From a bacterium (GTDB taxonomy: Bacteria; UBP15; UBA6099), in NCBI GenBank assembly GCA_029564595.1, contig JAKQPS010000049.1, positions 1 to 52,815 on the forward strand: a stretch of 52,815 nucleotides of DNA, read 5' to 3'. The translations under genes and the position numbers were made by a program. The notes beneath the pieces were generated by a model. It worked only from the letters and a program-made list of their open reading frames with translations, had not been told where the DNA came from and ran no database searches. The stretch's first letter is position 1, and every line of letters begins with the position of its first letter. Positions 18,177-36,000 of the stretch are shown piece by piece.

Positions 18177-19574
18177 ATGCCCGGAAAGTATCACATAGAG
18201 ACGAAGGAAGTCCCGCCCAGATTCAACGCCGTCGGCAGGTTCGGGATCATCGACCTGTACGAGACGTGCGCGAGAGGATGCAGGAACTGCGTAAAGAAGA
18301 AATGCATATACGACATTCACAAAAAAGAATTTGATTTTGCGCATTCGCTGGATCGCCCGACGGAGTTCATGAACGAGTGCATGAACTGCCTGATGTGCGT
18401 GCAGAACTGCACGCGCGGCGCTCTCACGAGGACGCAGAACCCGGAGTACACGTGGCTGGGCAACGAATACTGGAAGCCGGCGATAATCGCGGGCATCTGG
18501 AAGATGGCGGCCACGGCCAAGCTGCCGGTTTCGGGAGCCGGTTACGGCGGCCCGTTCTCAGGCCCCGGCTTCGATTCCATGTGGACGGACATGAGCGAGA
18601 TTGTCCGCCCGACCCGCGACGGCATTCACGGTAGAGAGTACATATCGACCTCGGTCGATATCGGCGGGTTGCCGTCCAACCTTGAGTTCAGCCCCGGCGG
18701 CGAGTTGCTCGGAGAAGAATCTCCGGTCATAGAACTGCCCGTGCCGTTTATCCTCGAAGTCCCGCCGCTTGGACAGATATCGAAGAACGTGCTTGAAGCG
18801 ATGGCTCGCGCGGCGCGAGGCATGGACACCTTGTTCGCACTCGACGCGGAAGACGCCGAAGAGTTCGCCGCAGAGTTCGCAGGCTGGCTGGCCCCCCGGG
18901 TGAAAAACAGCGCGATAGAGAATCATGCCGCTCTCATTAAGTCCGTCAGGATGGTCTGTCTAGAGGACTCTCCTGACGCGCTGGACGCAGTCGCCTGCGT
19001 GAAAGCGATAAATCCCGGAGCCGTCGTGAGAATAAGGCTGGCTCTCGGAGACGGCGTTGAAGCGCGGGTGGTCGAGTTGGTGGAGGCGGGAGCCGAAGCG
19101 ATTCAACTCAGCGCCGACATAAACGGAGATATAGCGTATTCAGACGGGCGCGTGGAATTCATCAAGGACGCGTTCCGCCGGATTCACAGCTTGCTCGTGG
19201 ACAAATGCGTCAGAGACAGGGCGACGCTGATCGCCGACGGCGGCATAGCTATGGCCGAGCATCTTGCGAAGATAATCATCTGCGGGGCGGACTGCGCGTC
19301 TCTCGGAATTCCATTCCTCGTGGCGATGGAATGCAGGATGTGCGGGGCGTGTTCGCGGGGCGTCGAATGTCCGGTGAACATGAGCGAGGTTCCGCCAGAA
19401 GACGGCGCGTGGAGAGTGATGAATCTAGCGGCGGCATGGCGCAACCAGTTGCTTGAAGTTCTTGGCGCTATGGGGATACGCGAAGCGCGCCGCCTAAGAG
19501 GGGAATTCGGAAGAGCGATGTTCTGCGAAGATTTGGAGCGGGACACGTTTCAGAAAATATTTGCCGGAGCGTGA
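18177..19574 (+). CDS. Glutamate synthase FMN-domain paralogue, degenerate, with N-terminal iron-sulfur motifs
   Basis: A 465-residue relative of the next gene. Residues ~25-80 hold cysteine clusters (CARGCRNCVKKKC and CMNCLMCVQNC) that look ferredoxin-like. The barrel region keeps the late glutamate synthase features (GADCASLGIPFLVAMEC and CRMCGACSRGVECPVNMS). It lacks the middle catalytic parts seen in the next protein, such as the glycine-rich GGGMSFGSIS segment and the Lys-bearing ISAKVAAPSDVD segment. It is probably not a glutamate synthase itself but an electron-transfer or structural partner. The start has AAAGGAGG 8 bases upstream. Its exact role is unknown. Confidence 0.7.
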   Translation: MPGKYHIETKEVPPRFNAVGRFGIIDLYETCARGCRNCVKKKCIYDIHKKEFDFAHSLDRPTEFMNECMNCLMCVQNCTRGALTRTQNPEYTWLGNEYWKPAIIAGIWKMAATAKLPVSGAGYGGPFSGPGFDSMWTDMSEIVRPTRDGIHGREYISTSVDIGGLPSNLEFSPGGELLGEESPVIELPVPFILEVPPLGQISKNVLEAMARAARGMDTLFALDAEDAEEFAAEFAGWLAPRVKNSAIENHAALIKSVRMVCLEDSPDALDAVACVKAINPGAVVRIRLALGDGVEARVVELVEAGAEAIQLSADINGDIAYSDGRVEFIKDAFRRIHSLLVDKCVRDRATLIADGGIAMAEHLAKIIICGADCASLGIPFLVAMECRMCGACSRGVECPVNMSEVPPEDGAWRVMNLAAAWRNQLLEVLGAMGIREARRLRGEFGRAMFCEDLERDTFQKIFAGA

Positions 19575-19646
19575 AAGCGTCCGGCGGGCGGCGTCTGGGG
19601 GAGTCCCGCGCGCCGCTTGAACAATAAAAGAAGGAAGGTCGCCGCT

Positions 19647-21167
19647 ATGAGCATGACAATTGAAAACGAAATCGCCGCCGCGCCAGCGACGCGCGAGATC
19701 AAAACGGCCCCGAGCCGTTTCAGGAACCAGATCGGGGCGTATAAAATATTCAGGAGCGAGAACTGCATCGGCTGCGGAAAGTGCGCGTCTCTCTGCCCGC
19801 ACGGCGTGCACGAGCGTTTCGGCGACAGCGGCAAGATGGTTAGACCGAGGGATTACAGATGCCGTGGAGAGAGTTGCCGAAGCGAGGAATATTTCTGCAT
19901 AAACAAATGTCCCGTCGGCGCTCTCTCGCTGCGCAGAAATCCCGTGTACTCAACTCTTGGAGATCACAGGTGGACCGCGGACCTGATTCTCAGCACATGG
20001 GATCAGGCTGAAAATGGTCGGATTACGAACGAAACACTTGAATCCGAACTCGGCGCGTCAGGCGGCGGATTCGACAAGTTGAGATTCAGGTTCCCGGCGG
20101 TTCCGTCCGGCGTTGATCCATCCGATGTGGACACCTCTCTGGAACTCAACCGGCGCTCGGACGACCCGGCGGCGCATAAAATCAAAATTGACGTTCCGTG
20201 GTACGGCGGCGGCATGAGCTTCGGCTCGATAAGCGACAACATGATGGTGTCGCGCGCTCGCGCGGCTACCGCGTGGAACACCTTTACCTGCACCGGCGAG
20301 GGCGGATATCCCGAACTGCTTCGCCCTTACGACGACCACATAATCACGCAGATAGCCACCGGCCTGTTCGGCGTGCGCGAGGAGACCATCCAGCGCGTGA
20401 AGATCGCCGAATTCAAATACGCGCAGGGGGCCAAGCCCGGACTCGGCGGCCATTTGCTCGGCGACAAAAACACCGCCGACGTCGCCCGCATGAGAGAGGC
20501 TGTTCAGGGCACGGCTCTATTTTCCCCGTTCCCGTTCCACAGCGTTTACTCGATTGAAGACCACAAAAAACACGTGGACTGGATAAAGGCTATGAACCCG
20601 CGCGCGCTGATTTCGGCGAAAGTGGCCGCGCCGTCGGACGTGGACATGGTCGCGGTAGGCTGCTACTACGCGGGAGTGCATATTGTGCATGTGGACGGGA
20701 GCTACGGCGGCACGGGGGCGGCTCCGGACATCGCAAAGAAAAACATCGCGCTTCCCATCGAATACGCCATCACGCGCGTCCACAACTTCCTTGCCGACGA
20801 AGGCGTCAGGGACGAGATAACTCTCATCGCCAGCGGCGGGCTGCGCTCGGCGCACGACATCGCCAAGGCCATAGCCCTCGGAGCTGACGGCGTTGTGATT
20901 GGCACGAGCGACATGGTGGCGGTCGAGTGTATTAGATGCGGCAACTGCGAGAGCGGTCGCGGATGCGCAAGAGGCATCGCCAGCACCGACCGCGAACTCA
21001 AACATCTCATCGACGTCGATTATGCCACGCAGCGCCTTATCAATTTGTACAATTCGTATCGTGAACAGTTGGTCGGCATCATATCGCGGCTCGGTCTGAG
21101 ATCAGTCGCCGAATTGAGGGGGCGCACCGACCTGCTGATGCACCTAGACTACTCGAAGCCCGAATGA
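19647..21167 (+). CDS. gltB: Glutamate synthase, FMN synthase subunit (archaeal type)
   Basis: A 506-residue subunit that reduces 2-oxoglutarate plus ammonia to glutamate on FMN. An N-terminal ferredoxin-like part has CIGCGKCASLCPHG and CINKCPVGAL (residues ~38-95). The FMN barrel includes YGGGMSFGSISDN, CTGEGGYPE, GAKPGLGGHLLGDK, ISAKVAAPSDVDM and the glycine-rich VDGSYGGTGAAP. A C-terminal cysteine cluster, CIRCGNCESGRGCARG, matches the expected iron-sulfur site. The ATG at 19647 follows AAGGAAGG by 8 bases. The glutaminase and GXGXG domains are on the next gene, so the enzyme is split. No NADPH-binding GltD is present here. Confidence 0.9.
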   Translation: MSMTIENEIAAAPATREIKTAPSRFRNQIGAYKIFRSENCIGCGKCASLCPHGVHERFGDSGKMVRPRDYRCRGESCRSEEYFCINKCPVGALSLRRNPVYSTLGDHRWTADLILSTWDQAENGRITNETLESELGASGGGFDKLRFRFPAVPSGVDPSDVDTSLELNRRSDDPAAHKIKIDVPWYGGGMSFGSISDNMMVSRARAATAWNTFTCTGEGGYPELLRPYDDHIITQIATGLFGVREETIQRVKIAEFKYAQGAKPGLGGHLLGDKNTADVARMREAVQGTALFSPFPFHSVYSIEDHKKHVDWIKAMNPRALISAKVAAPSDVDMVAVGCYYAGVHIVHVDGSYGGTGAAPDIAKKNIALPIEYAITRVHNFLADEGVRDEITLIASGGLRSAHDIAKAIALGADGVVIGTSDMVAVECIRCGNCESGRGCARGIASTDRELKHLIDVDYATQRLINLYNSYREQLVGIISRLGLRSVAELRGRTDLLMHLDYSKPE

Positions 21168-21196
21168 ACCGGGCGGCATATAGAAAGGAAACCGCT

Positions 21197-23833
21197 ATGA
21201 GAAACGACAATGAAAACATGGCAGCAAGGATACTTGAGAGCAGGCGCGCTATTTCTGACGCGGCTCCTCGCCGGGAGGCGGACAAGGTGGAGGAGGAGGG
21301 CGGGTGCGGCGTAACCGGATTCGCTTGTTCGATACCTGTCGCCGGCCGCCACATACATGCTCCCTCTGTGCAGATGCACAACAGAGGCAACGGCAAAGGC
21401 GGGGGGATCGCCGCGGTCGGACTCTCTCCCGATCAACTCGGCGTCTCCCGCGATGTCCTCGACACTAACTATCTCCTGTTAATTGCCGCGATCGACCCGT
21501 CGTGCGTGGAATCTCTCGAAAACAAATACATCCGTCCAAATTTCGACATCGCTTCCGAGGGGACCATCGATTCGATTGCCGACTGGCGGGACATGCCTTC
21601 GCTTCTGGTTCAACCGCCTCAGGTGCGCAGATATTTCGTTAGAGTGAAGCCATCCGTGTTGAACGCCTTCGCCGTCGCCAACAACCTCGAATCGCTTGAA
21701 CGCGACAGGATAGAGGACGAGTTCATATACCAGAACTCATACCGGATAAACACCGAATACTACGCCGCCCTCGGAGAGAAACAGGCGTTCGTGCTCTCCC
21801 ACGGCAAGAACATGATGATATTGAAGATAGTCGGGTACGCCGAAGAAGCGGTCGAGTATTACAAGCTTAACGATTTTAATGCGCACGTATGGATCGCTCA
21901 CCAGAGATACCCCACCAGAGGGCGCGTGTGGCATCCCGCGGGCGCTCACCCCTTCATCGGCATGCACGAAGCCCTCGTTCACAACGGCGACTTCGCCAAT
22001 TACTTTTCCGTTTCCGAATACCTGAAACAGCGCAACATTCGCCCTCTGTTCCTGACGGACACCGAAGTGTCCGCTCTCGAGTTCGACTTGCTCAACAGGG
22101 TGTACCGCTATCCGCTTGAATACATAATCGAGTCGCTGGCCCCCACGACGGAGTCGGACTTTGATCTGCTGCCGCCTGCAAAACAAAAAATCTACCGCCG
22201 GATACAGGCGGCCCAGATACACGGCTCTCCGGACGGCCCGTGGTTCTTCATCATCGCTCGCAATCTCCTTGAAGGGAACGGGTTCCAACTCCTCGGAATC
22301 ACGGACACCGCTATGCTCCGCCCGCAGGTGTTCGCTATACACGACGGCGAAGTAAAGATCGGACTTGTATGTTCCGAGAAACAAGCTATCGACGCTACGC
22401 TACGCAGTCTCGCCTCCGAAGATTCAAGGGTGTGCCCGGTGGCGGACAAATACTGGAACGCGCGCGGCGGCAGCAGCGAGGACGGCGGCTCTTTCAGCTT
22501 CACGCTCACCGGAGACGCATCTTCGTCTCAGGGCATGACTCTGGTTTGCAGGGACAAATTCGGCAAGGAAGTCGCGCCGCCCGCAGGCAAAAAGCGGCTG
22601 GACATCAGCCTGCCCATCGGCTCCGAAAACGGCGACGGGATGACCACGGAATTCATTCGAGAAAAACTTCTCGCCGGCGACCCGGAAGCCCTCTCCGCGG
22701 CGATGATGGAGAGGATGCCGCGCTGCAACTACGACGCGGTCAGAAGTTTCGCGCAACTCGTCGCCGAACATTCGCGCATTTCCGACTCGGCGCGCTCCGC
22801 GGCGATTGAAACCCTCACGACGCTCAATGACATGCGGTATCCGACCGGCTCGAAAATGAGAAGCTCTGTCCTTCAGGTGGTTCAAGCCGCTTTGGATTCA
22901 GTTTTTAAAGCGGTTCCTCAGATAACAGGCTCAGGCGCGTCAAAACACAGGCTTATCGAGTTCGAAACGCGCGACTCGCTCAGAGGCCCGGCGTCGGGCG
23001 AAGACACCCTCGTTATCAACGCCGCGGGGTTCCAGCCAGAACTTGACGACAGGGACTCGAAAACAATCATCGACGCGTTCCGGCTCGGATGGCGGAAATT
23101 CATAGTGTTCAACTCGACAGGGCAGAGGTTCCACGGCGTGGGTTTAGGGCCGGACACCACAGGAGTTCGCATAGACTGCTACGGCAATGTCGGCGACTAT
23201 CTAGGCTCCGGCATGGACGGCCTAGAAATACGCGTCCACGGCGACGCTCAAGACCAGCTTTGCCAGATAGCAAAAAGCGGCAAACTGGCGGTTTACGGCA
23301 GCGTCGGACAGACATTTATGTACGGCGCGAAAGGCTCAGAGGCGTATATTATGGGCAACGCGGCGGGACGCCCCCTCATTAACGCGGTCGGAAAACCACG
23401 CGTGGTGATAAACGGCACGTGTCTGGACTACCTTGCAGAAAGCTTCATGGCCGGAGACCCGCTCAACGGCGGCGGATTCGCCATCGTCAACGGGCTGGAA
23501 TTCGATGACGACGGACGTCTTCGCCCGCTCGCGCGCCCGTATCCCGGCGGCAACCTGTTCTCCCTAGCTTCGGGCGGCGCCATCTATCTGCGCGACCCTC
23601 ATTCCGTCACTTCTTCCGAACAGCTCAACGGAGGAGTGTTCTTTAAATTCACGGAGGCGGACTGGGCCTTGATACTTCCATATCTGCGGGAAAACGAGCG
23701 CTTGTTCGGCGTCTCCATCGAACGCGACTTGCTAACCGTGAACGGCGTCTTGAAGTCGCCGCTGGAAGTTTACCGCAAAGTAGGCGCGGTCAACGTTAAG
23801 AAACTTGTCGCCGCCACCGGCGGGGTGGAATAA
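21197..23833 (+). CDS. Glutamate synthase glutaminase plus GXGXG-domain subunit
   Basis: An 878-residue fusion. The first half is a class II glutamine amidotransferase with Cys37 in EGGCGVTGF, HQRYPTRGRVWHPAGAHPF and HNGDFANYFS. The second half (~600-878) is the right-handed GXGXG helix of the glutamate synthase alpha subunit, with GNVGDYLGSGMDG, GSVGQTFMYGAKGSEAYIMG and NGGGFAIVNG. It supplies ammonia from glutamine to the FMN subunit. The nucleophile must become N-terminal, so removal of a 36-residue propeptide is implied. The ATG at 21197 follows AAAGGAAA. The 12 bases before it repeat the leader motif of the two previous genes (ending CCGCT or GCCGCT before ATG). Confidence 0.88.
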   Translation: MRNDNENMAARILESRRAISDAAPRREADKVEEEGGCGVTGFACSIPVAGRHIHAPSVQMHNRGNGKGGGIAAVGLSPDQLGVSRDVLDTNYLLLIAAIDPSCVESLENKYIRPNFDIASEGTIDSIADWRDMPSLLVQPPQVRRYFVRVKPSVLNAFAVANNLESLERDRIEDEFIYQNSYRINTEYYAALGEKQAFVLSHGKNMMILKIVGYAEEAVEYYKLNDFNAHVWIAHQRYPTRGRVWHPAGAHPFIGMHEALVHNGDFANYFSVSEYLKQRNIRPLFLTDTEVSALEFDLLNRVYRYPLEYIIESLAPTTESDFDLLPPAKQKIYRRIQAAQIHGSPDGPWFFIIARNLLEGNGFQLLGITDTAMLRPQVFAIHDGEVKIGLVCSEKQAIDATLRSLASEDSRVCPVADKYWNARGGSSEDGGSFSFTLTGDASSSQGMTLVCRDKFGKEVAPPAGKKRLDISLPIGSENGDGMTTEFIREKLLAGDPEALSAAMMERMPRCNYDAVRSFAQLVAEHSRISDSARSAAIETLTTLNDMRYPTGSKMRSSVLQVVQAALDSVFKAVPQITGSGASKHRLIEFETRDSLRGPASGEDTLVINAAGFQPELDDRDSKTIIDAFRLGWRKFIVFNSTGQRFHGVGLGPDTTGVRIDCYGNVGDYLGSGMDGLEIRVHGDAQDQLCQIAKSGKLAVYGSVGQTFMYGAKGSEAYIMGNAAGRPLINAVGKPRVVINGTCLDYLAESFMAGDPLNGGGFAIVNGLEFDDDGRLRPLARPYPGGNLFSLASGGAIYLRDPHSVTSSEQLNGGVFFKFTEADWALILPYLRENERLFGVSIERDLLTVNGVLKSPLEVYRKVGAVNVKKLVAATGGVE

Positions 23834-24642: not shown

Positions 24643-26373
24643 TTACGCCGGAGGCGCCAGAGGAAGAACGATATCGAACTCCGCTCCCCCTCCGGGAGGC
24701 GATGCGACTTGAATCGAACCGTTGTGCCGCTCGATTATTTTGTATGTTATCGAAAGCCCCAGACCAACTCCGTCGCCTCTGGTCGTGAAGAAGGGGTCGA
24801 ATATTCTTTTTATGTTTTCGGGCTTCACGCCGGGGCCTGTGTCGCGGATTTTTATGAACGCAGTCGCGCCTTCAGAGCCTGTTGAGACATCAAGCGTTCC
24901 GTGTCCTTTCATGGCCTGCGCCGCGTTCAGCGCGATGTTCATAACCGCCTGAGTTATCTCTTTCTTTCCGCCCTTGATCAGCGGGGACTTTTGGGGCCTA
25001 GTTCGTTTCACTTCGGTGTGTTTCATCGTCTTATGGAAGCTCAGCATGCGGAGGGCCTCGTCCACCGCGTCGTCTGCGGCGAAAACCTGATCTTCCGCCG
25101 CTGCGGGCCTTGAGAATTCCAGAAGGTCTCTAATCGTCTGATCGATGAACCCTGCCTCTTGAGCGATGCGTTCCAGATAGTGGCTGATTTTTTCCGGCGG
25201 AGCCGTATTAATCAATTGAACATAGCCTAGTATGGCGGCTAGCGGGTTTCCGATTTCGTGGGCGACGCCGGCAGCAAGCTCTCCGACCGCCGCCAGTTTG
25301 CCGGATTCCACAAGCTGGTCCTGATTGATTTTTATCTCCTCGTCGCGCTGGGTCAAAGCCTCTGCCATCCTGTTGAAAGCTGTCGCAAGTTCTCGAAGCT
25401 CGTCAGGCCCGGAGGCGTCGAGCCGACGCCCGAAATCTCCCGCTTGTATCCTTTCCGCTCCGTAAATCAATTCGCTTATAGGCGACACGATACGGCGGGA
25501 GAGGCGGGCGCTCGCGAACGCGGAGACGGCCAGCGCGACTGCTGCTATGGCCGCTATCGCGGCAAGCCCCTGCTTCAGCGCTCTAGCAATCCTGTTTTTC
25601 GGGTACAGCGCGAGCAGGCGCGCCGGTTCCGTTCCCTCGCTCGGCATCTCCGAACTGTGAATGAGGTAAGATTTCGAAAGAGCCGAAGCAAGAGCCGGCT
25701 CCTGTCCTGAAGCGCGCGCGGTGGACGCGATTATCTCGCCCCGACGTTCTATCGCCAGATCGGCTTGCGTCATCTCTCTCACCGTCTCCACAAACCTGTC
25801 GTCCAGATGGAATCCGATGCGAACGAATCCTATGATTTCGCCGTCTTCGCCTTTCGTCGGAGCGATGGCGACAATGCCGAGGCCGCCGGGAAATACAGGC
25901 TCTATGCCGACGGCCGGCTCTCCGGATGTTGAGGCTCGATGGAACGCGGGGCTTAGAAAAAGAGGTTCGGAAAGCGCGGATGTTTCGAATTCGGGCGGGA
26001 GAGGCCGGCGGGATGCTCTAATCGTCGAAACTCCGTCCGCTCCGGCGACGGTTATGAAATCCGCTTCAATATTTTTCAGTTCCTTTTCTATTTCCGCCGA
26101 TATGCGCTCCTTGTCTCCGGCTGGAAGACCTGAGCGTATCTCGTAGTTCTGCGCAAGCAGGCGGGATGTGAGCGCCGCTCCTTCGAGGTTTCGGGATATG
26201 ACGCTGCTTGCCAGCAGAGCTGCGCGAGTCATGTCCTCTTCGGCGGCGGATTTAAGGTAGCGCGCGGCGAACACCGAGTACGCCGCGCCGAATATCAGCG
26301 ACGCGAACGCAAGCGTCAGCAGGTTCGACCTCATCAGCTTGCCGAACATCGTGGTTCGCTTAGTTTTCGACAT
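24643..26373 (-). CDS. Membrane sensor histidine kinase
   Basis: A 576-residue kinase. Two transmembrane helices (~15-35 and ~270-290) bracket a ~230-residue periplasmic sensor with a Cache-like look (VAGADGVSTIRASRRPL, GEIIGFVRIGF). A HAMP domain follows (RIVSPISELIYGAERIQAGDF). The H box is ELAAGVAHEIGNPLAAI with phosphoacceptor His372. Then come the N box (VMNIALNAAQAM), G1 (IRDTGPGVKP), F (FDPFFTTR) and G2 (GVGLGLSI). The start overlaps the end of the solute-binding lipoprotein gene by 14 bases. No response regulator is in the window. It is the last gene of the peptide-modification operon, so it may sense that operon's product; this is inference. Confidence 0.9.
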   Translation of the reverse strand: MSKTKRTTMFGKLMRSNLLTLAFASLIFGAAYSVFAARYLKSAAEEDMTRAALLASSVISRNLEGAALTSRLLAQNYEIRSGLPAGDKERISAEIEKELKNIEADFITVAGADGVSTIRASRRPLPPEFETSALSEPLFLSPAFHRASTSGEPAVGIEPVFPGGLGIVAIAPTKGEDGEIIGFVRIGFHLDDRFVETVREMTQADLAIERRGEIIASTARASGQEPALASALSKSYLIHSSEMPSEGTEPARLLALYPKNRIARALKQGLAAIAAIAAVALAVSAFASARLSRRIVSPISELIYGAERIQAGDFGRRLDASGPDELRELATAFNRMAEALTQRDEEIKINQDQLVESGKLAAVGELAAGVAHEIGNPLAAILGYVQLINTAPPEKISHYLERIAQEAGFIDQTIRDLLEFSRPAAAEDQVFAADDAVDEALRMLSFHKTMKHTEVKRTRPQKSPLIKGGKKEITQAVMNIALNAAQAMKGHGTLDVSTGSEGATAFIKIRDTGPGVKPENIKRIFDPFFTTRGDGVGLGLSITYKIIERHNGSIQVASPPGGGAEFDIVLPLAPPA

Positions 26374-26944
26374 GCGCCATGTGCAGTTGCGCGAATATGC
26401 CTGTCGAGTTCATGTGGGACAGGATTCTCGCGACCGCCTCCTTAAGCGATCCGTCGTCATCCATCACACAGATGTGTTTCCACCCCAGTTCCGGAGTGTA
26501 ATAATAAGGGATAAGATTATTTGATTCGCACCCGCTGTCGCCCTCGGGCAGGAAAACGATGTCGATTTCCGGGCCGGGGCGTTCGCCTTGATTAAGCAAT
26601 TCAATATTGGGTTTGATTTCCAGCATGAGGGCAATCTCGGCCGCAAGCTCTGGGATGAAGCCTCGCGGCGCGCTGATATCAGGGTCGAAATGGCAAAGCG
26701 CATTGTCGGGCGAAAAGACGACGGCGACACGAAGGACGCCCCTTTCGCGCGCCGCTTTTAGTCTGCCTGAGTCAGGCAGTCCGGCGGTCAGGCGTTTGGA
26801 AATCGTGTGTATGATTTCGCTTTGTATCGAGTCGGCGGAAGGAATCGGAGAAGCCGGGGCTGAGGCTCTGCGCGCGCCCGCGCACCCGGCGGCAATGAAG
26901 GCTGTTGCCGCCAACGCCGCTATCGCCCTGACTGCCCGCCTCAT
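26360..26944 (-). CDS. Short family 3 solute-binding-like lipoprotein
   Basis: A 194-residue lipoprotein: the signal ends in AFIAAGC with lipidated Cys21. The mature part begins like a family 3 amino-acid-binding protein (LKAARERGVLRVAVVF, then FIPELAAEIALML) and ends with a region resembling the closing lobe (LKEAVARILSHMNSTGIF). At ~170 mature residues it is shorter than the usual ~230, so one lobe is reduced. The ATG overlaps the TPR gene stop (ATGA), and its own end overlaps the kinase start. That coupling suggests a ligand-binding partner of the kinase rather than a transporter component; no permease is nearby. Confidence 0.75.
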   Translation of the reverse strand: MRRAVRAIAALAATAFIAAGCAGARRASAPASPIPSADSIQSEIIHTISKRLTAGLPDSGRLKAARERGVLRVAVVFSPDNALCHFDPDISAPRGFIPELAAEIALMLEIKPNIELLNQGERPGPEIDIVFLPEGDSGCESNNLIPYYYTPELGWKHICVMDDDGSLKEAVARILSHMNSTGIFAQLHMAHVEN

Positions 26945-28071
26945 GGTTGCCTCTCCAGTTGTTTGATTAGAAGCTGGAAACGAGCGTTCGAGCGAAGCCA
27001 GTTGAAATCCGCGTCGTTCTTCAGCCTGTTGAGCAACCCCGCCCGGCTCCAGACAGCGGCCTGTTCGAGGCTGTGTATCGCTTTCTGCTCCTGTTTTGTT
27101 GTCGCGTAAATCTCAGCCAGAGTAAACCAAGCGTCGTACGATTTGTCTATGGCGAGCGATTTCTCAAAATATGAAATCGCTTCGGGATACCTGAAGGATT
27201 CCTTGTGGACGACGCCGAGTTGGAATAAGTATTCCGGATTGCGGGGATCAAGGTTCGAGGCGGTCGATAGAGATTCGAGAGAAAGCTGCTTTTGTCTTTG
27301 GAGGTGAAGAGCGAGACCGAGGAGGAAATGGGCGCGCGGCTCTTTCGGGGCGGACGAGATGGCTTTTCTGAGGATCGCCGCCGCGTCCGAGAACAATGCT
27401 TTGTCCATCTGCGCCCTTGCAAGGGAGAGCGCAGGCTCTATGAAAGCGGGGTCGGCGGACATCGACTGCTGGAAGAAAGCTATCGCTTTTTCAGCCTCGT
27501 TCCGTTCGTAATGCCACATGCCTTTCCAGTGCGCGGCGGAGGCCGCCGAACTTGCCGTTCCGAGTAGAGCCGATTTGTCGTTCGGCAGTTTTCTGCCGAG
27601 AGCGGTTTCAAGCGTCCCGCGCAACGCTCCGCGCGCCGCTTCAATGTCGAACTCTTTCAGGGTGAACGATATGTCGCGCACAAGCCCAGTGTCGGGATTT
27701 ATTACCGAGCCGGTGAACTGGAAGCCGGAGCGGTCGCGCGACAGGGAACCGTCGACGATGAAAGAGGCTCCGGTGTGTTGCCGCAGCGCGTCGCGGGTCT
27801 CGAACGCCATTTCGCGTCTTCCCGCCGCCGCCCATCTGGATGCGAGCCTTTTGAGGGCGTCGCGGGGCATCGCGCGTTCTTTTGAATTCAGGGAAATCGC
27901 CCGAATTGTGTAGTCGGTGAGAGCGGGAGCCGCCCATTTTTCCGAAAAATCGCTCTCGACATCGAAATCGAACACTAGGGCGTCGAAGTCGCCGGAGTAG
28001 GCAAACGCGGGAGCGTGCGCCGCCAGTATCAGCAGGCACACCGCCGCTATTTTAAATAATCGACTCGACAT
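26941..28071 (-). CDS. Exported TPR protein
   Basis: A 376-residue protein with a signal peptide (FKIAAVCLLILAAHAPAFA). Residues ~25-170 form a domain resembling periplasmic proteins that build a value from a name and parameters (ASFIVDGSLSRDRSGFQFTG). From ~190 on, TPR units follow: EAEKAIAFFQQSMSADPAF, RAHFLLGLALHLQRQKQLS, PEYLFQLGVVHKESF and YPEAISYFEKSLAI. The ATG at 28071 overlaps the kinase-like gene upstream by 20 bases, and its stop overlaps the lipoprotein start (ATGA). Likely a periplasmic scaffold in the operon. The in-frame extension upstream is discarded because it lies deep in the previous gene. Confidence 0.75.
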   Translation of the reverse strand: MSSRLFKIAAVCLLILAAHAPAFAYSGDFDALVFDFDVESDFSEKWAAPALTDYTIRAISLNSKERAMPRDALKRLASRWAAAGRREMAFETRDALRQHTGASFIVDGSLSRDRSGFQFTGSVINPDTGLVRDISFTLKEFDIEAARGALRGTLETALGRKLPNDKSALLGTASSAASAAHWKGMWHYERNEAEKAIAFFQQSMSADPAFIEPALSLARAQMDKALFSDAAAILRKAISSAPKEPRAHFLLGLALHLQRQKQLSLESLSTASNLDPRNPEYLFQLGVVHKESFRYPEAISYFEKSLAIDKSYDAWFTLAEIYATTKQEQKAIHSLEQAAVWSRAGLLNRLKNDADFNWLRSNARFQLLIKQLERQP

Positions 28072-29005
28072 GTTCCATAACCGCGCGGCAACCGGATTCA
28101 GCGTCCGCTCCCAGTTCAAATTCAAAGGCGGGGGACTGCTCGGCGATGTCTCCGCTCATACGCATAAGTTCCTCGCACGCGCGCTCCGTCATCGGCATTC
28201 TGTGCAGCCTCATAAGCCTTACCGCCGCCTCCCTTGCTGATAATGGCCTGACTGCGGGGATTCCTTCCATTCCGGCGAGAAAATATACCGCCCGGATGGG
28301 CGATGGCAGCCCGGCTGCAGGCGGCGAGAGGAACTTTTCGTGCGGACTTGGCCTGAATCCTTTTTCTCCAAGAAGACTGATCTCATCCGTCGAAAGATCG
28401 GCGATTTCCACCGCTTCGCGACCGGGATAGACACAGACTGCGCCGCAATCGTTTTTCGCGGTGGCGCAGGCGTCGTCTGAAAGATATCTCGCTCCACGCG
28501 CGAGCGCGGCGCGCATAACGGTCGATTTCCCGCTGCCGTTGGGGCCGCAGAACATGACGGCTCCGTCTGCCCGCGCGGCAGAGGACGCATGAAAGAAGAA
28601 AACGCCGGCGCTCATCAACGTCAGGTAAATAAAATTGGAAGCCGCCGCGCAGACGATTTGAGTGACGCGGCTTTCCGGCGCGGGAGGGACATTGAATAAA
28701 GCCGCGCCGCTCTCAGGCTCCCATTCGAGAAACAACTGCATTCCGGGTTCCGGAATCGGAATAGGCGCGGCAATTGAATTCTGTTTAATTTTTCCGGGGT
28801 GGCTGTGATTGACGCTCAGGCGAAACAAATTTTTTTCGCTGTTTTTCGGCGGGGCGGCCATCGCGTTGTGCGCGTCGCCGTAGAAAGAAACAAAAAAAGT
28901 TTCCATGACGTCGGGGCGGTCGGTGTCTATAGCAAATCGGCTGCCGAAGAGGCTTATCTCATAGAATTTTCTGGACGCCGGCGACGCGTCCCTGATGTTG
29001 CTCAT
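28052..29005 (-). CDS. HprK-related kinase of the peptide-modification operon
   Basis: A 317-residue P-loop protein resembling the C-terminal half of HPr kinase/phosphorylase and the HprK-like kinases found in RiPP and polysaccharide clusters. The Walker A motif is CGPNGSGKST (Lys160), and YLSDDACA is the downstream acidic motif. In paeninodin-type lasso clusters a relative phosphorylates a serine of the precursor peptide. The ATG at 29005 is preferred over a TTG at 29038; neither has a good ribosome binding site. It starts 195 bases after the small peptide gene, with a possible promoter between, and overlaps the TPR gene by 20 bases. The peptide substrate is an inference from context. Confidence 0.75.
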   Translation of the reverse strand: MSNIRDASPASRKFYEISLFGSRFAIDTDRPDVMETFFVSFYGDAHNAMAAPPKNSEKNLFRLSVNHSHPGKIKQNSIAAPIPIPEPGMQLFLEWEPESGAALFNVPPAPESRVTQIVCAAASNFIYLTLMSAGVFFFHASSAARADGAVMFCGPNGSGKSTVMRAALARGARYLSDDACATAKNDCGAVCVYPGREAVEIADLSTDEISLLGEKGFRPSPHEKFLSPPAAGLPSPIRAVYFLAGMEGIPAVRPLSAREAAVRLMRLHRMPMTERACEELMRMSGDIAEQSPAFEFELGADAESGCRAVMEHVESII

Positions 29006-29109
29006 AGTTGGATAGCCCGGCCGCAGCCGGATTGTCAATTCCTTTCGCTCCGGTTTAGTCGATCTTGCGCGCTAATACTTAATCCGGAGATTTTGACAAA
29101 TTTGTTTTA

Positions 29110-29139
29110 ATTATAAGGCAGAAAACAGGGGCGGCACAA
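29110..29139 (-). promoter_or_regulatory. Possible internal promoter before the HprK-like gene
   Basis: Minus strand: TTGTGC (29139-29134), an 18-base spacer, then TATAAT (29115-29110), about 105 bases before the ATG at 29005. It would allow the kinase-TPR-lipoprotein-sensor genes to be read separately from the peptide genes. Confidence 0.35.
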
Positions 29140-29200
29140 CACAAAGGCGAGACGTTTCCGGCAAAGGGGCAAAACGGCGGCAGTAGGCGCGGATTCTATT

Positions 29201-29329
29201 TTACTTGTCCGCTTCGGCTTCCATTATCGCCTTGCACGATGGCCCGGTGTACACGTCCTTCACCGTTCCGTACTTCGTCAGCACGGGTTTGGAATAGGGT
29301 TTCTTGTTATCATTCTCATTCTTCTTCAT
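29201..29329 (-). CDS. Small RiPP-like precursor peptide (42 residues)
   Basis: A short gene inside the radical SAM/HprK gap. The ATG at 29329 overlaps the radical SAM gene by 14 bases and has GAGGTG 7 bases upstream, so it should be translationally coupled. The peptide starts with a charged MKKNENDNKK. It then shows Tyr12-x2-Pro15-x-Leu17-x3-Gly21, the leader motif by which PqqD-like proteins bind lasso-family precursors, with Thr28 next. The tail carries Ser31, a single Cys32 and Glu37, and ends in Lys. With a PqqD-like protein, a radical SAM/SPASM enzyme and an HprK-like kinase on the same transcript, it is the obvious substrate. The final modification is unknown. Confidence 0.75.
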   Translation of the reverse strand: MKKNENDNKKPYSKPVLTKYGTVKDVYTGPSCKAIMEAEADK

Positions 29330-30377
29330 GCTTGTTCACCTCTTTGTCGCCTAAGAATAACTCTATTATTCTACATATTTCTTTCGGAGCTTCAAACATA
29401 TTGCCGTGTTCGAGGAAGGCAAGACCGGGGCAGGGGCGGCAAGTGGGGAAGTGGCCGCAGCGGGAACACTCGAATTCCCCGATCTTAAGCTTCCTCAGCG
29501 CGTTGAACACGGCTGAATCATGCCACAGTTCGTCAAACGGGCGGTCTTTCACATTCCCGGCAGGCAGGTCCATGATTGAGCATGGAAGCAGGTTGCCTTT
29601 GGAATCTATATATCCTGACGTGCGGGCCATCGTACACCATGCGTCCAGCGTCTTGTCCGGAGAGAAGTCGTCCGGCTCGTGCGGGATGAAGTTCTCCGTG
29701 AAAGTTTCCCATGGACGGGGAAGTTTTTTGAGAAGCTCTTCAGAGAGTCTGCACTCAAGGGAGGACGTCTCCCCGTCTTTTCTGGGGGCGATTATCGAAT
29801 TGAACTGGTGGAATAAGCCGCGTTCCCGGCACAGTTCCTGAATCTGCGGCGCTTCCTCCTGATTCATCGTCATAAGAAGAGAAATCACTTCGACTCTGAA
29901 CCCCGCATCGGAGAGCATGTCTATGGCGCGGATGGTTTTGTCGAAACTTCCGGGCGAGCGGGTTACTGACTCGTGGGCCTTGGCGGTCGCTCCGTACAGG
30001 CTGACGGCCACAGCGCGGATTTTTTCTCTGCTACGGGCCAGAAAATCAACTGTATCCTGATCCAGCAGCGTTCCGTTGGTCTGCAGGGCGAGCCAAAAAT
30101 CGGAGCGGAGAAGAAGCTCTAGAATAACCATGATTTCAGGATGGCAGAGAAATTCACCGCCGGTGAGACTGACGCTGAAGACGCCTGCCGCGCTCATTCC
30201 GGGCAGAAGCCGCTCATAGTCCGCCGCAGTCATTTCTCCGGGGACATCCGAGCAGCCGCCCTGAATGCAATGCACGCAGTCAAGGTTGCAACGTCGGGTG
30301 ATCTCGAGTTGAATCCGCATGGGATTCGCCCGGCCAACCAGTTTTTTGTGAAGCGCGTGTCTGGGCAGTTGAAGCAA
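29316..30377 (-). CDS. Radical SAM/SPASM peptide-modifying enzyme
   Basis: A 353-residue radical SAM protein. Cys30, Cys34 and Cys37 (CNLDCVHC) bind the SAM cluster, and SLTGGEF is the SAM-binding GGE motif. The C-terminal SPASM domain has a Cys-x13-Gly-x4-Cys pair (from WCTM to LLPC), then CSRCGHFPTCRPC and a last Cys in EICR, enough for two auxiliary clusters. Such enzymes make thioether or carbon-carbon links in peptides or prune side chains. The start is a TTG at 30377, supported by GGAGG 8 bases upstream and adjacency to the PqqD-like gene; the next ATG (30320) would remove 19 residues. The peptide gene overlaps its 3' end. Confidence 0.9.
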   Translation of the reverse strand: MLQLPRHALHKKLVGRANPMRIQLEITRRCNLDCVHCIQGGCSDVPGEMTAADYERLLPGMSAAGVFSVSLTGGEFLCHPEIMVILELLLRSDFWLALQTNGTLLDQDTVDFLARSREKIRAVAVSLYGATAKAHESVTRSPGSFDKTIRAIDMLSDAGFRVEVISLLMTMNQEEAPQIQELCRERGLFHQFNSIIAPRKDGETSSLECRLSEELLKKLPRPWETFTENFIPHEPDDFSPDKTLDAWCTMARTSGYIDSKGNLLPCSIMDLPAGNVKDRPFDELWHDSAVFNALRKLKIGEFECSRCGHFPTCRPCPGLAFLEHGNMFEAPKEICRIIELFLGDKEVNKHEEE

Positions 30378-30380
30378 AAA

Positions 30381-30659
30381 TCAGCCCTCCGCGTCTCTGA
30401 CAATCAAACCTTCAGTTTCGAGGTCATTAAGCAGTTCGAGCGTGTCCGCAAGGGCAGTTTCGGCGTCCACATTGAAGCTTTCGGCCACGGCGGCCGCGAT
30501 TTGTCGCGCAGATGCCCCTCCGGATAAAATCTCCCAGATGAAAACGCCTACGTCCTTCAGGTCGTAGTACACTCCGCTCTTGATGTCCAGCAGAATCGCT
30601 TCTCCGTCGATTCTTCTTTCTATCAAACTAGCGCTTTTTTTAAAAACAACTTCGCCCAT
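30381..30659 (-). CDS. PqqD-like peptide recognition protein
   Basis: A 92-residue RiPP recognition element of the PqqD family. It shows the family run: RRIDGEAILLDIKSGVYYDL, then VGVFIWEILSGG, a helix with ETALADTLELLNDLE and the final GLIVRD. It should bind the leader of the 42-residue peptide and present it to the radical SAM enzyme. The ATG at 30659 is the first in frame; upstream candidates use TTG. Its stop lies 3 bases before the TTG start of the radical SAM gene. A TATAAT-like sequence on the minus strand at 30743-30738 may be its promoter, though I find no good -35. Confidence 0.85.
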   Translation of the reverse strand: MGEVVFKKSASLIERRIDGEAILLDIKSGVYYDLKDVGVFIWEILSGGASARQIAAAVAESFNVDAETALADTLELLNDLETEGLIVRDAEG

Positions 30660-30949
30660 CGGGACGCCTAGTTTCTTTGCGGGCCGGAGTTCTTGGCAAA
30701 AGTGGAACAAATGTGTTTCCGGCCGTCCGCAACCACAATTATATTTTAATGATATTTTAACGTCCTAAAGTAAAATTTTAAATTAAGAGGGCCAAATATT
30801 AGAAAAACAGCGGAAATTATATTAGAGAGCGCAATAGCTCCTGCATTTGATTTTTTTGGTTGAATTGAACACGACGCGCCGGTTATTGTATAATTCAGAT
30901 GCCGGATAATTAAAGATGCGATTAAACAAAGAAAAAAATGGTGAATGAT
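30660..30949. other. AT-rich divergent intergenic region
   Basis: It separates the minus-strand peptide operon from the plus-strand export gene. Besides the promoter candidates it shows no open frame with a ribosome binding site and no convincing hairpin. Confidence 0.5.
30865..30894 (+). promoter_or_regulatory. Promoter of the export gene
   Basis: TTGAAC (30865-30870), an 18-base spacer, then a perfect TATAAT (30889-30894), about 55 bases before the gene. Sigma-70-like. Confidence 0.55.
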
Positions 30950-31870
30950 ATGAGAGTGGCGAAAATTTCAGCGGCTCTGGCGGCAATGTTTATTTTGTCG
31001 ACGGTCGCCGGAATGGCGGCAAGCGTTGACACAAGGCAGATAGGTCAGGGAGACAGGCTGATGGTCCGAGTTCCCACCGAGCCTGCCATAAGCGGTGAAT
31101 ACACTATCGACGAAACAGGAAGATTTTTCTTTCCGATACTCGAGCATGGGCTTGATTTCGGCGCGATTGAAGTGGATGGCCTGACTCTCGACGAAGCAGA
31201 AGAGCTTGTGTCGAAACTGATGAGCAAATATTACGAATCGCCTGTCGTCAATATTGAGTTCGTGGCTTATGGAGTGCGACCGGGATATGCAGTTTCGGTT
31301 TTCGGCGCGGTGCAGGAACAAAACACCCACAGATACTTTGAGGGCATGAAGCTTCTGGATGTGCTGATTAAATCAAAACCGCTCCCTGACGCGGATATTT
31401 CCAAGCTGGCTCTTTTCAGGGGAGAAGACCCAGTCAGATATCTGGACATCAGAAAGATGATGGACGGAACGGACATGAGCGCCAACATCCCGATGCAGGC
31501 GGGCGACACGTTAATAGCGCCCTATACGCAGCCGGCAATGAAGATGAGGGTGATTGTTCTTGGAAAAGTGACCACGCCCGGGACGATGTTCGTTCCGGAA
31601 GGCACGCAGATTCTTGACCTTCTAGGCAGAGCCGGAGGAACAGTCGGCAGAGCGGCGATAGGGAGCACCTATATTATTCGCGTTGTGGACGGAGAACCGG
31701 TAATCATAAACTCAGATGTGAAATCGCTCATGAAATTCGGCGACCTGAAAGAAAATATCGTTCTAAAGGACGGCGATGTGGTCTTTGTCCCGGAGACTTC
31801 CAGAGTCGATATAGCAAAAGTCATTCAAAATCTTTCTCTTTTGAATTTAATCAAGTCAACGACAGACTGA
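30950..31870 (+). CDS. Wza-like polysaccharide export protein (SLBB)
   Basis: A 306-residue exported protein of the polysaccharide biosynthesis/export family. After a signal peptide (ISAALAAMFILSTVAGMAA) comes the PES domain: IGQGDRLMVRVPTEPAISGEYTI-type start, then LDEAEELVSKLMSKYYESP. Two SLBB-like segments follow (YAVSVFGAVQEQ and MRVIVLGKVTTPG...VPEGTQILDLL). There is no lipobox cysteine, unlike Wza. Such proteins form the outer-membrane or periplasmic part of a polysaccharide exporter, but no Wzc-like co-polymerase lies nearby. I prefer the ATG at 30950, which has GGTGA 5 bases upstream; the ATG at 30938 adds four residues. Confidence 0.8.
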   Translation: MRVAKISAALAAMFILSTVAGMAASVDTRQIGQGDRLMVRVPTEPAISGEYTIDETGRFFFPILEHGLDFGAIEVDGLTLDEAEELVSKLMSKYYESPVVNIEFVAYGVRPGYAVSVFGAVQEQNTHRYFEGMKLLDVLIKSKPLPDADISKLALFRGEDPVRYLDIRKMMDGTDMSANIPMQAGDTLIAPYTQPAMKMRVIVLGKVTTPGTMFVPEGTQILDLLGRAGGTVGRAAIGSTYIIRVVDGEPVIINSDVKSLMKFGDLKENIVLKDGDVVFVPETSRVDIAKVIQNLSLLNLIKSTTD

Positions 31871-33052: not shown

Positions 33053-36000
33053 ATGAAAAGAAGAGCGGCAACCGGGATCGCGATAATCATAGCTCTGGCA
33101 ACAGTGTGCGCGCGCGCTGAGGCGGCGGGCATGTTGTCCTCTGAAAGCTCCAAGCAGCCGGTTGTGCTGGTTCACGGCTATTTCGGCTCGATAGCCGGCC
33201 AGACTTCGGTCGAGCTGTACTGGTCGTTCATATCAACGCGGCTAAAACTCGACGGATTCGACGTGTACAAGATAGCCCTGCCGGATGGGGCCATGGAGGA
33301 CATCCCGCGAAGCGCGGCGGTTCTTCGCGACTACATAGACGCGACGCTGGCCCGGACGGGCAAGTCGAAGGTGGATCTGGTCACGCACAGCGAGGGCGGT
33401 CTGATCTCCCGGTACTACATCAAGCATCTCGGAGGCGCGGGCAAGGTTGACGATCTGGTGACGATAGCCACTCCGCACAGGGGCACAAGCGTGGCGCATA
33501 TCGGCCCCGGCGAGGCCGCTCGCCAGATGGAGATTTACAGTTCCTTTCTTCGAGAGCTGAACACGCCGCCCACTCTGACCGGCGACATCGACTACACGGC
33601 GATTTTCAGCAATCACGACGAGATGGTGGTTCCGAACGAAAACGGTTTTTTCGCGGGCGCGGTAAACATGAACGTTAACCTGCTGGGTCACGGCGGAATA
33701 ATGTTCAATGAAGACGTCTATAAGATGACGCGCGGAGCGTTGAAGAACAACACCGGGGAGGGCCGCAGGGCCGTCCCGATTCAGATTGTGAAGTCGGCAA
33801 TGGTGACCAACAACCCGAACGTCACCCTGAGGCTCAAGAAGTTCAACCATTTCCACGACGACGAAGACATGCGTCAGATGAGGATAAGCAACAAGCAGTT
33901 CCTTCACGGCGCGGACTGGCATTCGTTCGCCGACACCAAGCAGTGGACGCTGGATGATTCCCGCGACGGCATGAAAGCCGTTTACGTCCAGTTCAGGCAC
34001 AGCGGCAATTTCCTTTTTCCAAAAGAATCTCCGACTTACGTTGACTATATCTTCCTAGACAGGGAAGCTCCGAAGGCGTCGATAACCGCTCTTCCCGATG
34101 TGACGCTTGAATCTTCGGCGACGATAGGCATAGACGCTTCGGACAATACGGACGACTACAAGAAGTTCAAGGTGTGGAACGCGCTGTTCGCTTACGGGAT
34201 GGAAGAGTTCGGCGTGAAGGAGATGATGGTCAGCGCGGACCCGTCGTTCGCGGGCGCGTCATGGCAGCCTTTCGCCAAGAGCGCGGTCGTCAACCTCGGC
34301 GCCGGCAGCGGCATGAAGACGGTTTATGTTAAAACGAGAGACGCCGCCGGCAACGTCAGCGCGGTGGCCACGGGCAACATCAGGGTCATTGACGTCAATG
34401 CTCCGGACATCGGCATGGTGTCCGAAGGAGCGAGGCAGCCGGTCGTGTTGGTGCACGGTCATTCAGGCTCGATACTCGGCGACCTGAGCGTGGCTGTTTA
34501 CTGGTCTTACATAGGCGGAAGGCTCAAGAGCGAGGGGTTCGACGTTACGGAGATAACGCTGGGCAACGCGGCGATGCAGGACATCAAAAAGAGCGCGCGC
34601 GAGCTTCGCGATTTCGTTGCCGCGACGGTGGCGAGGACCGGCTCCCCGAAGGTCGACTTGGTGGTTCACAGCGAGGGCGGTCTGGTGTCGAGATATTACA
34701 TCAGAGAGCTCGGCGGCGCGCAGTTCGTCGACGATCTGGTGACGATCAGCACCCCGCATAGGGGCACGACCGTAGCCCATGCGGGCATGGGACTGCTCGG
34801 CGAGGGAACTAGCCAGATGGAGGTTGCCAGCCCGTTCATTCAGGAGCTTAACTCCGGCGACACCCTGTTCGGCGGAGTCGAGTACACCGCGATGTTTAGC
34901 CATGCCGACGAGATCGTGCTCCCCGGCACGAACGGGTTCTTCGACGGCGCGGTGAACGTGAATTTCATGCTGCTCGGCCACGGCGGGATACTTTTCGCGC
35001 CGGAACCGTACAAAGTTCTGCGGTCCGCCATATCGTACAAATATTTGTTCTCGAAAGGACAGCGCCCGGTCGAGATAGTCGAGCCGGGGATGTCCACAAA
35101 CAAGAACACAGTGGAAGTCAGATTGAAACCCTGCAACCATTTTTCCCCGCAGGCTCCTGTGACGGAGATGATGGTGGCCACGAACGGGATGTTCCACGGA
35201 GCGGTGTCGTGGCGGCCGTTCTCGAATTCGGTGAATCTGGACATTTCGGGCAAGGACGGGGGGCTTCTGGGCGTCCATGTGAAATTCAGAGGGGCTGACG
35301 GCGTCGAGTCTCCTTCCTACGCTGACTATATAATAATCGACCGCGAGACTCCGACCGGAACGGTCTCGATCTCTGCGACGGACGCCGAAAAATCGACGAT
35401 GACGCTGAAGATTTCCGCGACTGACAACGCTGAAAAATACGGTTATTTCAAAGTGACCAATCTGCTCGAGGCCTATGGGATACTGGGCATAGGAGCAAGA
35501 GATATGCAGGTCTCGACGGATTCCGGGTTCGCCGGGGCGTCGTGGGAGCCTCTAGCAGGCTCGAAGACAGTGACGGTGAGCGCGGGCACAGGAGAAAAGA
35601 TGGCGTATGTCCGCTTCCGGGACGCCGCCGGAAACGTGTCTCAGACCCGTTCGGTGGCGACGCAGATGTTCAGCCCAATCAACGGATTCGTTGCCGCAGA
35701 GAAGGGCCGCGCCCCGGTGGTTTTCGTTCACGGCTACGGCGCGGTGGCGTCCGAACTGACCTCTAAAATCAACTGGCTCTACTACACGGAGCGGCTGAAA
35801 AAAGAAGGGTATTCGACGCATGTTATAGCGCTTGACGCGGCGGGGACGGGGGATGTTATCGCGAGCGCCGCAAAACTGAGGGATTTCGTGCAGGGCGTTC
35901 TCCGCGAAACCGGCGCGGATAAGGTTGACATTGTCGCCCACAGCGAGGGCGGTCTGGTCGCCCGATATTATATAAAGGAGCTTGGCGGAGTCGCTTCGGT

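Follow-up and report, generated by a model that had tools for sequence, protein, structure and literature searches.

A conserved locus in an uncultured bacterial order predicted to encode a phosphorylated, radical SAM-modified RiPP next to a sensor kinase module

What is made by an operon that combines a gene for a peptide of 42 amino acids with genes for a PqqD-like protein, a radical SAM/SPASM enzyme, an HprK-like kinase and a sensor histidine kinase, and do its two halves act together? We analyzed such a locus in a window of 52,815 nucleotides (the whole stretch of DNA under study) and compared it among seven genomes from four genera of its order, a UBP15-type uncultured lineage. Our main reading, to which we assign a probability of roughly 0.5, is that the locus directs production of a small phosphorylated, radical SAM-modified RiPP and shares its operon with a periplasmic sensing module. 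It appears to be of the phosphorylated lasso-leader RiPP kind, with an unusual mix of enzymes and a linkage to signaling genes.

Organization and conservation of the locus

All seven open reading frames (24643-30659, minus strand) lie at the coordinates given by a sequence-only reading of this DNA, and the gene spacings reported there were reproduced. The pqqD and radical SAM genes are 3 bases apart, while overlaps were found between the radical SAM and peptide genes (14 bases, 29316-29329), the hprK-like and TPR genes (20 bases, 28052-28071, counted from the ATG at 28071), the TPR and lipoprotein genes (4 bases) and the lipoprotein and histidine kinase genes (14 bases). The largest gap in the operon follows the peptide gene and measures about 160 to 195 bases, the value varying with the choice of hprK start (TTG 29038 or ATG 29005), so a separate transcript after the peptide gene is possible. 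Terminator and promoter scans returned more hits than shuffled sequences (10 versus 4.7 and 9 versus 2.1, respectively), yet these were non-specific. Hits in a sigma-54 promoter search were fewer than expected by chance, the interval from pqqD to the export gene contained none, and an Rfam scan of the window gave no match in the locus and a single match, a tRNA, elsewhere. Neither an exporter nor a peptidase was detected among the operon genes by Pfam search.

The seven-gene block is present in all seven genomes of the order; it is contiguous in five and split by contig ends alone in the other two. Most operon proteins are 37 to 55% identical between genera, and the kinase is 24 to 28% identical. 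Homologous loci without the small peptide or with a detached kinase half, which had been named as findings that would speak against a single system, were not seen for this locus in any of the seven genomes. The surrounding gene order (SLBB, DivIC, S1) is conserved as well, so part of the linkage could be inherited synteny. The divergent neighbor encodes an SLBB/Poly_export polysaccharide export protein (30938-31870, plus strand; Poly_export E = 1e-12, SLBB) and is kept in 7/7 genomes, with synteny in loci L003-L005, L039, L041 and L043. A second cassette adjoins polysaccharide-export genes in two genomes, and the main cassette likewise lies beside such genes. The loci of linear polyphosphorylated peptides (LPPs) and of paeninodin also often adjoin polysaccharide-export genes (PMC13381572).

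A near-invariant precursor with a lasso-type leader

The 42-amino-acid peptide (29201-29329, minus strand) is almost certainly a RiPP precursor, with a leader comprising residues 1 to 28 and the core GPSCKAIMEAEADK (residues 29 to 42). Since 17 of the 20 nucleotide differences from the gene of genus g2 fall at third codon positions, and the full-length peptide was found in all seven genomes of the order and in none of 379 others, the open reading frame is real and its origin by chance can be ruled out. The leader harbors the motif Y12xxP15xL17, the RRE-binding motif of lasso-type leaders, with Tyr, Pro and Leu at positions -17, -14 and -12; Tyr12 is replaced by Phe in one of the seven sequences, and lasso leader models match the peptide below threshold. 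The penultimate leader residue (-2) is Tyr. In lasso peptide leaders, this residue is known as Thr or Ile.

Placement of the motif makes Gly29 core position +1, Ser31 +3 and Cys32 +4. The core is 14 residues long in all seven genomes, and G+1, P+2, S+3, C+4 and the terminal D+13 and K+14 are invariant; in two of the four genera, the core has no hydroxyl residue besides Ser31. A C-terminal Ser phosphosite as in paeninodin was ruled out, as the C-terminal residue is Lys. The near-invariance of the peptide suggests that it serves a fixed function in physiology, for instance as a signal or an envelope factor, and is not a variable antibiotic.

A short, near-invariant and undiversified precursor would also suit a redox-cofactor-like product excised from the peptide, comparable to PQQ or mycofactocin. 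The pairing of PqqD with a SPASM enzyme, the MftC model among the best matches and the missing dedicated exporter agree with such a product, but scores of the PQQ and mycofactocin models are far below their cut-offs, which led us to reject membership in either pathway. As the operon also has no associated dehydrogenase, and a peptide kinase and a lasso-type leader are foreign to PQQ and mycofactocin pathways, we regard a cofactor as very unlikely.

Enzymes predicted to modify the core

Pfam searches upheld the domain calls made earlier for the PqqD-like, radical SAM/SPASM, TPR and dCache/HAMP/HisKA/HATPase proteins. The PqqD-like protein (30381-30659, minus strand; PF05402, E = 4e-18) is a discrete RRE of the lasso B1 type, with lasso_PqqD_Bac as its top, sub-threshold NCBIfam match and TbiB1 as its nearest solved structure (E = 1e-8), followed by other lasso/PqqD-family chaperones. 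Motif and homology suggest that it would bind the leader at Y12xxP15xL17.

The radical SAM/SPASM peptide maturase (29316-30377, minus strand; Radical_SAM E = 7e-23, SPASM E = 3e-8) is by its sequence features a canonical SPASM enzyme: its CxxxCxxC motif (C30, C34, C37) and seven SPASM cysteines (C248, C266, C304, C307, C313, C316, C335) are invariant in the order. The nearest solved structure is that of the sactisynthase SkfB (E = 7e-24). Sactipeptide and ranthipeptide maturases such as SkfB and CteB have the radical SAM core, the full SPASM cysteine set and Cys in the peptide core in common with the locus, whereas a separate lasso-type RRE, a peptide kinase and a single core Cys set the locus apart. 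We tentatively predict that the enzyme cross-links the 14-residue core, with Cys32 (+4) as the likeliest donor of a possible thioether toward the Asp41-Lys42 end. In two other genera, a B12-binding radical SAM enzyme encoded between the peptide and kinase genes may add a further group.

The HprK-like assignment of the next gene (28052-29038, minus strand) is supported by the predicted fold, whereas its sequence match is weak (TIGR04352, E = 7e-7, sub-threshold). An AlphaFold model (pLDDT 77, pTM 0.77) matched PEPCK (E = 2e-6) and HprK/P (E = 2e-4) structures in Foldseek, consistent with a predicted peptide serine kinase of HprK/PEPCK fold. The H-G-GxGKS-DD motif, H139-G154-G157-G159-K160-S161-D177-D178 (from ATG 29005), shows spacing identical to that of BsfK, a lasso kinase that phosphorylates core Ser3 of BsfA with strict choice of position and stimulation by an RRE (PMC10368454). 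Because the spacing is common to BsfA/BsfK, core Ser3 stands out as the specific phosphosite, and Ser31 (+3) is probably phosphorylated by the kinase together with the RRE. The leader motif, the invariant core, the complete catalytic motifs and the order-wide co-conservation together lend good support to modification of the peptide by RRE, radical SAM/SPASM enzyme and kinase.

Away from the locus, six of the seven genomes encode a stand-alone leader peptidase of the lasso-B2 type that is matched by Pfam (on contig C45 in genome G000), and in both genomes scored against the NCBIfam lasso B2 model it passed the cut-off (41 and 37 bits versus 33). This peptidase may well act in trans and would then cut the leader off after residue 28; a search of the order for C39 peptidases gave weak, scattered matches only. 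Together with the lasso-type leader and RRE, Gly1 and a Glu at core position 9 in genus g1, the B2 homologue could also indicate a degenerate or noncanonical lasso pathway with cyclase and protease in trans. This is highly improbable, because the acceptor Asp/Glu at core positions 7 to 9 is missing in three of the four genera (position 9 being Asn, Ala or Gly outside g1), neither the operon nor the surroundings of the B2 gene yielded a lasso cyclase, and a dedicated radical SAM enzyme is present instead. Lacking a linked cyclase and a conserved ring acceptor, the locus product is not expected to be a lasso peptide.

Comparison with described systems

Phosphorylated lasso peptides of the Bsf type from Bradymonas (BsfA/BsfB1/BsfB2/BsfK) share with the locus the YxxPxL motif at -17 to -12, Gly+1, Ser+3, a discrete RRE, an HprK-like kinase with equal catalytic motif and spacing, and a non-Ser C terminus (PMC10368454). 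In contrast to these, the operon contains neither cyclase C nor peptidase B2, has a radical SAM/SPASM enzyme where the cyclase stands, and encodes a peptide with Tyr at -2 and no conserved ring acceptor. LPPs have in common with the locus a discrete RRE, a YxxP leader, an HprK-like kinase for core Ser3, the absence of a cyclase and the frequent proximity of polysaccharide loci, but LPP cores are variable, and the SpI peptidase, NTP transferase and MsbA-like exporter of LPPs are absent among the operon genes (PMC13381572). The leader encoded here lacks the FET part of the LPP leader YxxPxVLxHQxIxFETxxS. LPPs have been reported from Bacillota alone, in a paper that does not mention radical SAM enzymes (PMC13381572).

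The SynChlorMet cassette (NCBIfam TIGR04248-04251) likewise combines a PqqD-like protein and SPASM enzymes with ScmC, which resembles the HprK-like proteins described here. The window gave weak matches to ScmD, ScmE and ScmF, and ScmC was weakly matched by the second cassette and by genome G005. Membership was rejected, as scores were far under the cut-off (ScmD 32 of 100 bits, ScmE 94 of 400 bits) and one SPASM enzyme is present, not two; the SynChlorMet models also include no peptide or signaling genes.

The RRE-Finder study noted about 300 discrete lasso-model RREs beside radical SAM enzymes and counted them among that model's false positives; no kinase is mentioned in its main text, and we found no precursor or signaling partner described there for this pairing (PMC7470986). 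Our literature search yielded nothing on SynChlorMet or on radical SAM, HPr kinase, PqqD and RiPP combined. The claim that the full gene set is undescribed holds in the literature searched, but phosphorylated lasso peptides and LPPs already display the logic of RRE, kinase and leader.

The linked sensor trio

The remaining genes encode three putative sensory proteins. The exported TPR protein (26941-28071, minus strand, with a possible alternative upstream TTG start at 28125) carries an N-terminal domain ahead of repeats that match Pfam TPR families and was confined to the order among 117 genomes searched. The lipoprotein (26360-26944, minus strand), in which the lipobox Cys21 is invariant, had been called SBP-like. 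It has no Pfam match, but its model (pLDDT 81) fits isolated domain 1 of TmArgBP (E = 9e-6, TM 0.71 of target), which narrows the call to a single lobe, domain 1, of an amino-acid-binding protein of family 3; a paralogue in genome G004 matches SBP_bac_3 (E = 8e-7). The dCache-HAMP sensor histidine kinase (24643-26373, minus strand; Pfam) is of the AtoS/ZraS type, these two being its best, sub-threshold NCBIfam matches.

Paralogous TPR-lipoprotein(-histidine kinase) modules without peptide genes occur in genomes G000, G004 and G005, one with an NtrC-type regulator alongside (G004, contig C15) and one adjoining glycosyltransferases (G005, contig C24). The signaling half is thus an independent module that need not read the peptide. 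It had been proposed that a linked lipoprotein-kinase pair senses a modified, perhaps phosphorylated, peptide or its target; the modification is well backed, while sensing of the peptide, plausible as it is, is rather doubtful.

These paralogues, the amino-acid-binding half domain and the wide gap between peptide and kinase genes would fit RiPP and sensor halves that are functionally separate and neighbors by inheritance, the sensor reading an unrelated envelope or amino-acid cue. We see an appreciable, though less than even, chance of this, given that in g1 the TPR gene shares 20 bases with the HprK-like gene of the RiPP half and that all seven genes are kept together across families despite low protein identity. 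If instead the RiPP and the periplasmic sensing module belong together, the three proteins of the sensor trio might detect the product or an envelope state that it affects and, speculatively, signal via an unlinked, probably NtrC-type regulator. The furthest-reaching version seems unlikely: a dedicated endogenous signal, in which the cell produces and releases a radical SAM-crosslinked 14-mer phosphorylated at Ser3 and reads it with a half-SBP lipoprotein, TPR protein and Cache histidine kinase of its own, so that RiPP and two-component system form one circuit governing envelope or polysaccharide functions in this lineage.

If true, the proposed pathway would show that recognition by lasso leader, RRE and kinase can serve as a platform for added radical SAM chemistry, and its product would carry two modifications on neighboring residues (Ser3 and Cys4). 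The predicted residues, S31 and C32, are concrete, and the invariant core and operonic sensor link provide a testable case for the role of phosphorylated RiPPs near polysaccharide loci. As a point against the pathway, a four-gene close relative from another phylum (genome G112, locus L074) keeps both the leader and the kinase but lacks Ser at +3.

Gene content and conservation of the locus

The sequence-only reading had described seven minus-strand genes, most of them overlapping or closely spaced, at 24643-30659, and we confirmed the genes and their overlaps at these positions. Domain searches bore out the claimed PqqD-like, radical SAM/SPASM, TPR and sensor kinase proteins, the last being a dCache-HAMP histidine kinase. 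The proposed HprK-like kinase gave a weak sequence match but is supported by its predicted structure (mean pLDDT 77), for which the best Foldseek matches were two proteins of a common fold, ATP-dependent PEPCK (E 2e-6) and HprK/P of L. casei (E 2e-4). The lipoprotein, previously called SBP-like, had no match in a Pfam search; its model (pLDDT 81) resembles the arginine-binding protein of T. maritima, specifically domain 1 in isolated form (TM 0.71 of target), and the lipoprotein corresponds to one half of a family-3 solute-binding protein.

The order was sampled by seven uncultured, MAG-based genomes (G000-G006) from four genera. Five genomes (G000-G003 and G005) hold all seven genes contiguously. 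In the other two, contig ends break the set: the TPR, lipoprotein and histidine kinase genes lie on a separate contig in G004 (C350), with the 4- and 14-base overlaps of the window, as do the lipoprotein and histidine kinase genes in G006 (C462). A divergent polysaccharide-export gene adjoins the locus in all seven. In G004 (end of locus L039) and G005 (L041, 6240-7754), a B12-binding radical SAM gene separates the peptide gene from the kinase gene; the window's genus, window included, has none there. Among 117 genomes, the TPR protein was limited to this order (at E 1e-25), and a search with the window's radical SAM protein found close relatives in UBP15-type MAGs.

Judging from its pattern of substitutions, the 42-residue peptide is encoded by a real gene. 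Differences within the genus fall mainly at third codon positions, as do 17 of the 20 differences from the next genus. A profile search recovered the full-length peptide in 7/7 genomes of the order and in none of 379 others, where only leader-like matches occurred. Invariant residues are K9, K10, K14, P15, L17, T18, Y20, G21, T22, K24, D25, V26, Y27, G29, P30, S31, C32, D41 and K42; position 12 is Phe instead of Tyr in one of the seven sequences, and every sequence has exactly 14 residues after position 28.

Predicted modification and leader removal

The closest structure to the PqqD-like protein is the lasso RRE TbiB1, followed by other lasso/PqqD-family chaperones; among NCBIfam models, too, those for lasso PqqD chaperones matched it best. 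The YxxPxL motif of the lasso precursor BsfA covers positions -17 to -12, and the RRE-assisted kinase BsfK phosphorylates Ser3 alone (PMC10368454), a residue also targeted by the kinases of linear polyphosphorylated peptides (LPPs) (PMC13381572). Setting Y12 at -17 puts the invariant Tyr27, Gly29, Ser31 and Cys32 at -2, +1, +3 and +4, so that Ser31 occupies the position of the BsfK and LPP kinase target. Furthermore, the BsfK motif H148-G163-G166-G168-K169-S170-D186-D187 recurs with identical spacing as H139-G154-G157-G159-K160-S161-D177-D178 in the window kinase.

A thioether at Cys32 would be our leading, tentative guess for the radical SAM product, because every radical SAM and SPASM cysteine is invariant and the enzyme is closest to SkfB. 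No leader peptidase gene is linked to the locus. A stand-alone homologue of the lasso leader peptidase B2 (PF13471 matches) is present in six of the seven genomes and exceeded the NCBIfam cut-off in both genomes tested; examples are L138 6606-7058, L139 6829-7236 and L140 1078-1494, and no lasso cyclase was seen near these genes. It is a candidate trans-acting leader peptidase, and its link to the peptide is suggestive only, since 40 of 117 genomes in a broader sample (the six included) match PF13471, mostly inside larger proteins.

Related cassettes

A second cassette, HprK-PqqD-radical SAM-peptide, was found in the window's genome, G000 (contig C139; L034 3367-5953), and in G003, G004 and G006 (L038, L040 and L044), in G003 and G004 beside SLBB/Wzz-type genes. 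Its peptide (...YSKPRIKSSSIKDTFLACGKCGSGPVEMFVCVVFPELS) has a conserved ACGKC and a core, LACGKC or ALACGKC plus a C-terminal Ser, unlike that of the window peptide. Outside the order, related HprK/PqqD/radical SAM sets (L110, L112-L117, L119, L122 and L123), several with FETxALACGK leaders akin to those of LPPs, possibly form a widespread radical-SAM branch of LPP-like RiPPs. In genomes G112 and G248, a lasso-type leader peptide lies beside a radical SAM gene, in G112 in the order PqqD-radical SAM-peptide-HprK. Since such sets exist and RRE-Finder placed about 300 lasso-type RREs next to radical SAM enzymes (PMC7470986), the core of the locus is a variation on a known type. Relative to the open-licence PMC literature, the new elements are the invariable peptide, its Ser3-Cys4 core and the link to a sensor.

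A third, closer radical SAM paralogue (34% identity) is encoded at L107 5496-6554 (G000 C88), with relatives in G001-G003, G005 and G006; the surrounding stretch gave no PqqD match.

The signalling half

Paralogous TPR-lipoprotein sets, partly with a histidine kinase and all without pqqD, peptide kinase or peptide, occur on G000 C5, G004 C15 and G005 C24 (modules at L141 6059-7879, L142 702-4404 and L144 1425-6532). In G004 a gene for a sigma-54 NtrC-type regulator comes after the set, and two modules adjoin B12-binding radical SAM genes. The TPR-lipoprotein-histidine kinase half is thus also a module in its own right, which predicts the type of output. The earlier proposal was that the lipoprotein-kinase pair senses the peptide or its target; these RiPP-free sets weaken the argument that the peptide has to be what the window's kinase detects. 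Beside one such module, L141 10094-13280 carries a tandem of three near-identical flagellin-like genes.

Other features of the window

At 33053-37519 the window encodes a 1488-residue protein with a signal-like N terminus and, in tandem, three alpha/beta hydrolase domains resembling lipases. Three consecutive genes at 18177-23833 carry glutamate synthase, ferredoxin, GXGXG and amidotransferase domains and make up a split glutamate-synthase-like operon.
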